The position numbers were made by a program, and so were the translations under genes. The notes beneath the pieces are model-generated. The model did not search any database. It was not told where the DNA came from and saw only the letters and a program-made list of their open reading frames with translations. A stretch of DNA of 64,000 nucleotides from Morchella semilibera (Eukaryota > Ascomycota > Pezizomycetes > Pezizales > Morchellaceae), in the NCBI GenBank assembly GCA_009192285.1, contig WBVU01000008.1:940370-1004369 (forward strand), given 5' to 3'. The first letter of the stretch is position 1. Every line of letters begins with the position of its first letter. Shown here in pieces: positions 49,982-51,611 of this stretch.

Positions 49982-51611
49982 GTGCCTAACGGACACCAGA
50001 CACAGGTCAACACAGACCCTAAACATACCAGACAAAACGAACAAGATGAAGAGCAGAATGAGCAGGATGAACAACACGGTAGGCCCAACAAGAGGCGTAG
50101 GGAAGGAACAATCAACGACCTTCCATCACCACCCCCCGAAAACAACTCTGCAAGCGCGGGGACAATGGAGGCCAACCGCATTTCAGGAGTACAACTAGCA
50201 GAAATGCTCGCAAAGCAGGCCAGGGACGAGGAGTCCCAGACAAACATCAAATCAAGAGACGAACTTGTAGACGAGGAGGTCACCGGATTCCAGAAGGGCA
50301 AAGATGGCGCAAACAAAAAATGGTTCCTAAGAAGGGAACTAATTTTCCTCACCTTCCCCCAGTGCGGAGCCACAAGGGAGCAATTCCTAGACGCCTTCAG
50401 GAGGTTAGATAACTACCCTACCTCCGCTATCATGTGCAGGGAACAGCACAAACTAAAGGAGAGCGAAGAAACCGCGGCCTACCACTTCCACGTAAGTCTA
50501 ACACCTCAGGAAACGTCTTTACAAACAAACGCACAAACTAACAAGGCGTCACACGCAAAAGGTATTCATAAGGATGGAAAGGATAAACGGCCACCCTCGA
50601 ACAATAAGCAACCCCAGAGCCTTCGACCTGAAAATCGAGGGCAGAACATACCACCCCAAAATCGAGGCCGCAAGAAACGCAGCGAACTGCTGGGACTACA
50701 TCAACAAGATGGAGAGCCCAAACGACGAGGTCTTCTCAGAACCCCTCATCAGAATGGAACGCCCCGGCCGCAAAAACAAGGAGCACATATGCCAAGAGAA
50801 CGTCTGGCATAAGATCTCCCGAGCCACCTCCCGAGAGGAGGCTTCACTACTGCTCGAGGAGCTTGTGCCCAAAAAGGCGTGGTGCAATTCACCTTCAATC
50901 CAGCACAAGCTCGACCTGAAGTTCCCCAACAAAGACAACACCGCCTGGGGACTACCCGAAGATACAGCCCTCAAAAGATGGAGAAGGATAAAACAGATAG
51001 AAGACTACTTGGATGTCTTCATCCGCTCCAAAAGAAAAGGGCGGCAACTAGCGTTATGGATTTCCAGCGAAACGGGCTCAGGAAAATCTTCCTTCATTAG
51101 GAGCCAGGGCCATCACTCCTACATATCAAACTTCTGGGACCCTAGTAAGCTCAGAGGCGACGTGGACTTCAACATGGTGGACGACCTACGCATCGAAGAT
51201 CTAGCCTACATGGGATACAAAGGGCTCATCCAAGGGACTGAATTCTCCACATCTGGAAAATACAAAAAGATCATCAACTTTGACGGGGGCAGACAACACG
51301 GCAGAAACGGGATACCAACCATGTTCTCCACAAACTACAACCCCCTCGACGAGTTCGATCCCCACCCCGTGTCGGATAAAATGATCGATACAAAATGGCT
51401 TAAGGGGAACATATACCATATCGACCTTGGAGAAGTAAGCCTCATGCTTGAAGAAAATGAGGAAGACATCCTACACACGCTACCCCCTCATAACGTGAAT
51501 ATACTAAGATCCTGGAACGCCCACCTCACTAGCTACCACGAGGAAAAAAACCAAGCAAGCGAGAGAGGACACATACTACTAAGAATAATAAGAGAAAACA
51601 ACAAAAAATAG
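49982..51611 (+). CDS. Geminivirus/genomovirus-like replication initiator (Rep), one intron
   Basis: Rolling-circle initiator: in this family an HUH endonuclease nicks the origin and an SF3 helicase unwinds it. Exon 1 is 49982-50491. Intron 50492-50561 is 70 bp with GTAAGT donor, CTAAC branch 20 nt before the acceptor, and phase 0. Exon 2 is 50562-51611, giving 519 codons in all. Numbering from 49982: a Q/N/charged N-terminal extension with a basic NLS-like patch (36-41); motif I FLTFPQC (122-128); motif II HFH at the exon end (168-170); GRS region (about 189-209); motif III Y216xxK219; Walker A TGSGKS (341-346); Walker B VDD (376-378); motif C FSTN (425-428). There are no stops or frameshifts, so it may be functional. 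The real start is unresolved: TAG precedes codon 1, the first ATG is at 50165, or an upstream exon joins at TTTCCTTTAG (49972-49981). Confidence 0.93.
50492..50561 (+). other. Rep intron
   Basis: 70 bp with a perfect GTAAGT donor, CTAAC branch-site candidate at about 50537-50541 and AG acceptor. It interrupts rep exactly after the motif II histidines and, when removed, leaves the frame intact. Confidence 0.88.

Follow-up and report, generated by a model that had tools for sequence, protein, structure and literature searches.

Within the 64,000 nucleotides of Morchella semilibera DNA analysed here (the window), we identified an element of about 5.8 kb in which a Rep gene is accompanied by a hairpin, a block of conserved noncoding DNA and, on the opposite strand, the three genes ORF161, ORF230 and ORF236. 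The locus probably represents a circular single-stranded DNA replicon with a Rep gene (a virus or a virus-derived plasmid), of the geminivirus/genomovirus type and consisting of one circle or several, that has been integrated. Our best reading is that copies of such a geminivirus/genomovirus-like replicon, carrying uncharacterised companion genes, were integrated separately into this genome. As read from the sequence, this interpretation draws on the Rep motifs, the same placement of intron signals in two divergent copies, purifying selection on three genes relative to a second copy (copy A), the convergent gene order, a hairpin sequence common to three copies and a marked strand asymmetry. 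The element is organised as follows:

49945-55750 (approximate ends), plus strand: whole element, A+C-rich plus strand, with a Ty3 junction on the left and a 28S-bearing repeat on the right
49982-50491, plus strand: Rep exon 1, open from 49982, with motif I and the start of motif II
50492-50561, plus strand: Rep intron, 70 nt, GTAAGT...ACTAAC...AAAAG, read from the sequence
50562-51611, plus strand: Rep exon 2, with the end of motif II, GRS, motif III (YINK), Walker A, and Walker B-like and motif C-like segments
52059-52541, minus strand: ORF161 main exon, Cys-containing protein of no recognised family
52542-52596, minus strand: proposed ORF161 intron, 55 nt, GTATTG...TTTTTTAG, by eye
52597-52611, minus strand: proposed 15-nt first exon of ORF161 with its ATG, by eye
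52733-53338, minus strand: ORF230 from its ATG (53338), 202 aa, with an Arg-rich stretch in the C-terminal half
53499-53532, plus strand: hairpin and candidate origin, GGTGCCGC-17 nt-GCGGC-x-ACC, common to the window and copies A and B
53677-54763, no strand assigned: conserved noncoding region, blocks 77-93% identical to copy A, no codon periodicity, no Rfam family
55106-55708, minus strand: ORF236 from its ATG (55708), 201 aa, no recognised family

The gene order is convergent, with Rep on the plus strand and the three companion genes on the minus strand. All four frames are open, making the window copy the least decayed among the copies found.

We searched the genome (57 Mb, 23 contigs) for further copies. 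A stretch of contig C21 matches the window at 100% identity for 9 kb starting at 49900, and at 98-99% farther out. Since C21 and C22 are collinear at three places (0.97, 0.99 and 1.5 Mb) with nearly equal offsets of 1.6-1.7 kb, we regard the C21 copy as an allele on the homologous chromosome and reject it as a duplicate. Contig C17 holds a cluster of two copies whose Rep 5' sides face each other:

C17:308028-311983, plus strand: copy A, collinear with window 50927-54763, from Rep exon 2 through the noncoding block
C17:about 299.7-305 kb, minus strand: copy B, Rep 36% identical in amino acids to the window Rep in the exon-2 part and 24% in exon 1

The Rep of copy A is 82% identical in nucleotides to that of the window and contains three stops; the copy ends before ORF236. 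The 682 aligned bases of copy A and window 50927-51608 contain no gap although dS is 0.64, suggesting that most of the divergence predates decay. Copy A and the window copy are probably separate insertions. Copy B, interrupted by stops and frame changes, keeps the intron position, the hairpin and opposite-strand parts of ORF230 and ORF236, with ORF236 placed between ORF230 and Rep. No further Rep locus was found at E 0.001 in a protein search of the genome; these copy counts are lower bounds. Within ORF230 of copy A lies a 141-nt insertion (C17:about 310084-310224) rich in GTCTCCTGAG-type repeats, at a site where an open frame of 284 codons is listed; repeats of this type also occur around C17:307.7-308.0 kb.

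The Rep gene and its family

An earlier reading of the window, made from the sequence alone, had described a spliced, uninterrupted geminivirus-like Rep, with no mention of the companion genes, noncoding block, hairpin or asymmetry around it. Both exons and their open frame stand at 49982-50491 and 50562-51611: the frame opens after a TAG at 49979-49981, reaches the donor at 50492 and ends with the stop codon at 51609-51611. In the exon-2 region the longest open frame comprises 369 codons, a length reached by none of 2000 Markov shuffles. The 70-nt intron indeed has good signals (GTAAGT, ACTAAC and a terminal AAAAG) and interrupts motif II, as had been claimed, splitting it into HFH and V. Copy B has a 64-nt intron with the same GTAAGT, ACTAAC and AAAAG signals at the equivalent place.

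The 5' end is less clear. "Uninterrupted" applies to the frame and is not sure for the whole gene: the Ty3 junction cuts the left side, where Ty3 reverse transcriptase homology ends at about 49931, and copy B has an ATG farther upstream, 192 codons ahead of motif I, with four stops between in that frame. The extension of about 110 residues reported before motif I measures 121 residues from the frame start and only 60 from the first in-frame ATG, at 50165. With no in-frame ATG ahead of 50165 and a truncated Ty3 element next to the frame, we regard the N-terminal extension as uncertain. The window Rep may be missing its beginning, and translation may cover no more than part of the "long charged extension".

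The following segments of the translated exons, read as letters, are those that we take to be the Rep motifs bearing these names (motif II being the segment split by the intron):

50345-50365, plus strand: motif I, FLTFPQC
about 50604-50687, plus strand: GRS, with YHP
about 50697-50708, plus strand: motif III, YINK
51066-51089, plus strand: Walker A, SETGSGKS
51162-51185, plus strand: Walker B-like, VDFNMVDD
51312-51335, plus strand: motif C-like, IPTMFSTN

The HUH motifs I, II and III occur in order, and the GRS lies between motifs II and III in both the window (FDLKIEGRTYHPKIEAARN) and copy B (AWDIKINDKTYHPNIQA), supporting the proposed link to geminivirus and genomovirus Reps. The sequence-only reading had placed all Rep parts in order. 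For the HUH and GRS motifs this holds; the putative SF3 helicase is assigned from a Walker A, a Walker B-like and a motif C-like segment recognised by eye and conserved in copy B, and Pfam helicase models gave no match to Rep.

Profile searches of the translated exons, each searched separately, returned Pfam Gemini_AL1 for both, at E 0.053 for exon 1 (model positions 6-46 of 113) and E 0.036 for exon 2 (positions 63-100 of 113), in either case below the cut-off of 24 bits. The two matches are complementary and in order. If they are independent, the chance of both exons sharing a Pfam family is about 1e-7 (24736 x 2.1e-6 x 1.5e-6). Viral Rep chains in the PDB matched exon 2 at E 0.032-0.11 and exon 1 at E 0.19-1, a range that also contains two entries for ion channels (0.43). 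The GRS and motif III of the window and copy B, combined in a two-row profile, aligned with viral Rep chains of the PDB at E 0.0036; the entries concerned (6q1m, 6we0 and 6we1, "Replication-associated protein") we take to be Reps of wheat dwarf virus, a member of the Geminiviridae. An AlphaFold model of exon 2 made without an alignment had a mean pLDDT of 37.7, too low to be of use. Gemini_AL1 found no match in the genome, and likewise none in 14 control genomes.

These results also bear on whether the motifs could have arisen by chance within a long open frame that is not a Rep. All profile matches fall under the curated cut-off, and for exon 1 DUF6312 scores slightly better than Gemini_AL1 (E 0.047), covering the low-complexity N-terminal part. 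Such a coincidence is nevertheless already very unlikely, given that one Pfam family hits the two exons in complementary order, that viral Reps of the PDB are matched by both, that the motifs are conserved in copy B at 36% identity, and that differences from copy A are in excess at third codon positions.

Companion genes and past constraint

Searches of Pfam, PHROGs and NCBIfam identified no family for ORF161, ORF230 or ORF236, and ORF230 and ORF236 had no match in the PDB. None of these searches gave a capsid-like match. The proteins may yet have a remote capsid fold; an AlphaFold model of ORF230, made without an alignment, had a mean pLDDT of 34.6, too low to be of use. The ATG, the donor GTAT and the acceptor proposed for ORF161 are also present in copy A. 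In copy B, a relative of ORF230 is 35% identical over 102 residues (E 2e-14 in 6.5 kb) and a piece of ORF236 scores z 8.0 (0 of 2000 shuffles); for a C-terminal piece of ORF161, a doubtful candidate, 11 of 2000 shuffles reach the score with 171 segments tried. The open length of ORF236 was reached by one of 2000 shuffles. Comparison of the three proteins did not support their being mutual paralogues.

We then estimated selection from the comparison with copy A. The dN/dS ratio was 0.14 for Rep (222 codons; 20/18/65 differences at the three codon positions; three stop codons set aside), 0.25 for ORF161 (156 codons; 41/29/66; one stop codon set aside) and 0.21 for ORF230 (200 codons; 38/23/69; one stop codon set aside), compared with 0.94 to 2.05 for shifted-frame controls, two per gene. 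Because copy A has decayed, these values are upper bounds for the time of activity. ORF236 lies outside the comparison, as copy A stops short of it. For Rep, the comparison of genomic copies that had been suggested as a check shows past constraint, most of it dating from the replicon's existence before integration or near that time. Of the earlier suggestion of "recent arrival or selection", the past constraint holds up, and the alleles, being identical over 9 kb, give no test of present selection.

A low ratio for Rep, together with four frames that are open here while the C17 copies are broken, could alternatively point to a domesticated gene, an open Rep kept by the host for instance as a defence against related viruses. 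We consider this improbable. It is not Rep alone that is open but all four frames, which a fairly recent insertion fits better; moreover, Rep lacks an ATG before 50165 and adjoins the Ty3 junction, and the identical alleles are silent on current selection.

Strand asymmetry, noncoding block and candidate origin

The plus strand is A+C-rich from Rep to ORF236, whichever strand codes. Third positions of Rep exon 2 contain A at 0.30, C at 0.42 and T at 0.09; those of ORF161, ORF230 and ORF236, read on their own strand, contain T at 0.35-0.41, G at 0.30-0.34 and A at 0.11-0.13. The AT skew is +0.50 in the Rep intron and +0.26 in the noncoding part, compared with +0.09 in the 28S-bearing repeat; four Ty3 frames are without asymmetry. 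Copies A and B are skewed too, at +0.26 and +0.22 in Rep orientation. In 5-kb windows, the A+C fraction is highest at 50501 (0.619) and at most 0.537 in windows wholly outside the element. The opposite deviation is seen at about 24600-29600, where A+C falls to 0.42 (0.422 at 24.6 kb) and the plus strand is T+G-rich, a mirror of the Rep element; no genes of the element were recognised in this stretch, which includes a second 28S fragment. Since it deviates about two-thirds as far from one half, in the other direction, skew alone is not unique to the element.

Such an asymmetry is as expected of a rolling-circle single-stranded DNA replicon. Loss of cytosine from a strand that is frequently unpaired would produce it, and the minus strand would then be the virion-like strand. 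Geminiviruses encode Rep on the complementary strand, opposite to their other genes, as in the window element. Unlike in the Geminiviridae, no coat or movement protein match and no TAATATTAC hairpin were found in the element.

The noncoding blocks are better conserved than the synonymous sites of the genes (pS 0.43-0.55), and the spacers between them are near 45-53% identity. Because conserved blocks alternate with diverged spacers, constraint explains the blocks better than recent exchange, which we favour less. Alifold z-scores ranged from -3.57 to +1.81 over 26 window and strand tests of the noncoding part; the strongest were -3.57, for the plus strand at 54640-54770, and -3.40 and -3.44, both near the hairpin. 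As a candidate RNA gene the block was set aside: Rfam gave no match at the gathering threshold and just four weak ones at E 0.38-3.9.

The hairpin is the candidate origin. Its pattern, searched in the 57 Mb with up to three mismatches, matched only Rep elements (four of four matches, being three loci and the allele), and the reversed control matched nothing. Pairing is kept in 23 of 24 cells over eight pairs and three sequences, and one pair is changed on both sides; this single covarying pair is matched by 184 of 500 shuffles and so is no proof. Folded as a single DNA strand in the plus sense, the hairpin has z-scores of -2.50, -1.70 and +0.43 in the window, copy A and copy B, where 5, 13 and 133 of 200 shuffles, respectively, fold as well.

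No TAATATTAC-type loop was found; five near-matches with at most one mismatch occur, none of them within the one stem listed by the scan, which asked for eight pairs without a bulge and thus missed bulged stems, the hairpin at 53499-53532 among them. The sequence TAATATTAT at 53278, inside ORF230, was taken as chance, no stem being found. A 23-nt repeat with TAGTGTTAC/TAGTGTTGC, whose copies are 87% alike, occurs at 51704-51726 and 52616-52638, 912 nt apart, the second copy just ahead of the proposed ORF161 ATG. Its AACTAGTGTTRCMAGATG sequences at 51706 and 52618 were dropped as two multipartite origins, as they are not preserved in copy A; with up to two mismatches AACTAGTGTTRCMAGATG has 14 matches in the genome, four of which are the element and its allele, against three for the reversed control.

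The hairpin is placed about 160 nt past the ORF230 start in the window, and likewise in copy A, but in copy B it sits 5' of Rep, about 65 nt from the ATG. Between the hairpin and ORF236 of the window, the noncoding DNA measures about 1.1 kb. The different hairpin positions are as circles opened at different points would give. Simple circular permutation is insufficient, because the order of the noncoding block and ORF236 differs in copy B: either the two lineages have different genomes or the copies come from more than one circle.

The latter case leads to a special form of the integrated-replicon reading rather than its opposite, in which several components of a multipartite genomovirus-like virus such as FgGMTV1 or BcssDV1 were integrated side by side, each gene coming from its own circle with a shared origin. 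One Rep with three proteins of no known family resembles segments A-D of BcssDV1, as far as the cited description goes (PMC10731770). The changed order of hairpin, noncoding block and ORF236 between copies and the twofold occurrence of the 23-nt repeat point the same way. Each component should, however, bring its own hairpin, and the window element has a single one (up to six substitutions allowed). The repeat is absent in preserved form from copy A, and the window and copy A share a collinear arrangement of Rep exon 2, ORF161, ORF230 and the noncoding block. We therefore regard a multipartite origin as possible but doubtful.

Chromosomal setting and known systems

The flanking elements are Ty3, in agreement with the transposon neighbourhood that had been described. 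The Ty3 element at 46997-49940 is broken off within the reverse transcriptase directly beside the Rep element; on the far side of the Rep element, within the window, no right half of this Ty3 element was seen. A repeat joining about 250 nt of other DNA to a 28S rRNA fragment (LSU model 2121-2337) occurs at these places:

55775-56470, plus strand: window, right of the element
about 25897-26395, minus strand: window
C17:292107-292502, 299690-299800 and 290643-290704: three places on the contig of copies A and B

Its seven matches in the genome are the window and C17 places and two alleles. The repeat adjoins both the window element and copy B, and the replicon or the locus may have carried rDNA.

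This setting raises the alternative of a chromosomal transposon carrying a viral Rep, a linear element with fixed ends moved by its own Rep or by a partner transposase. An element of this kind is in print for a fungus: the geminivirus-like transposon of Tuber melanosporum has, in the cited passage, 37-bp terminal inverted repeats and transposase frames (PMC3198968). The position among Ty3 elements and the 28S-bearing repeat beside two copies would suit such an element. Repeat and profile searches found no transposon hallmarks of the element itself: frames of at least 150 aa in 49.9-56 kb gave no transposase match, and the longest ungapped inverted repeats in 49500-57500 are 20-21 nt at 76-80%, with none of the Tuber type. 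Nor did we find many near-identical copies. The window copy with its allele, copy A (82% in nucleotides) and copy B (36% in amino acids) are lower bounds that indicate no recent burst, and the strong strand asymmetry also argues against a transposon, which we consider unlikely. Helitrons are rolling-circle transposons that share the HUH endonuclease logic of the window Rep and have a PIF1-type helicase; by motif reading, the window Rep differs in its SF3-type motifs and GRS.

As an integrated replicon, the element can be compared with two groups of fungal sequences. Geminivirus-like Reps have been known from fungal nuclear genomes since 2011, in Laccaria (5), Tuber (42) and several ascomycetes, with degenerate copies (Liu et al., 2011; PMC3198968, cited passages). 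The window element shares with them the geminivirus-type Rep domain, the nuclear location and the degenerate copies, and differs from what is described there in having three opposite-strand genes, a noncoding block and a hairpin. The word "intron" is absent from the main text of PMC3198968, whereas the window Rep has a predicted one. A survey places fungal endogenous Reps near the Genomoviridae and Geminiviridae in the passage cited (PMC6186406).

The second group comprises BcssDV1, a fungal genomovirus of four segments, and FgGMTV1, which we compared by description only (PMC10731770, PMC8262958, cited passages). According to these passages, both share with the window element a Rep with HUH motifs and GRS as well as companion proteins without conserved motifs; their Reps also have Walker A and B and motif C, for which the window Rep has putative counterparts. 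The BcssDV1 Rep is described as negative in sense, as the window Rep would be with the minus strand as the virion-like one. Since a putative intron is reported in the BcssDV1 Rep (PMC10731770, PMC8262958), an intron in Rep is not exceptional. The same passages describe an origin hairpin in the common region of every segment, compared with the candidate hairpin of the window element, and for BcssDV1 a DNA-A of 1690 nt with the loop nonanucleotide TACTCTTCA. The window element, in contrast, has contiguous genes over 5.8 kb, another loop of 17 nt and about 1.1 kb of conserved noncoding DNA.

Relatives of the element were found neither by tblastn in phages and plasmids nor in viral_contigs scans, where the motif-I pattern likewise had no match, so that absence there says little. 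A contiguous gene set of this kind was not found in the published literature within our scope, which excluded most subscription papers and all preprints.

In its free form, which we infer to have been a circle and a virus rather than a plasmid, the spliced Rep would bind the intergenic region, and its HUH tyrosine would nick the minus strand, which is T+G-rich, in or close to the hairpin. The putative SF3 helicase of Rep would unwind the DNA for replication by rolling circle. The opposite-strand genes, lying in virion sense, may serve encapsidation, spread or host interaction. Copies would have entered the chromosomes separately or at different times and then decayed.

We tentatively propose, at rather less than even confidence, that these copies represent an undescribed family of fungal circular single-stranded DNA viruses or replicons. 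Its members would hold, in one molecule of about 5-6 kb, a GRS-type Rep and a companion gene, both spliced, two other orphan genes, a conserved noncoding stretch of about 1 kb and, as origin, a hairpin unlike TAATATTAC, and would be recent enough for one integrated copy to keep all four genes open. Few DNA viruses of fungi are known, and the passages cited here describe endogenous Reps of fungi as Rep genes or remnants. The locus offers a defined set of genes and a hairpin for finding the free form, and makes the functions of fungal CRESS companion proteins testable. It may point to a fungal DNA virus or replicon of a kind that has yet to be seen whole.
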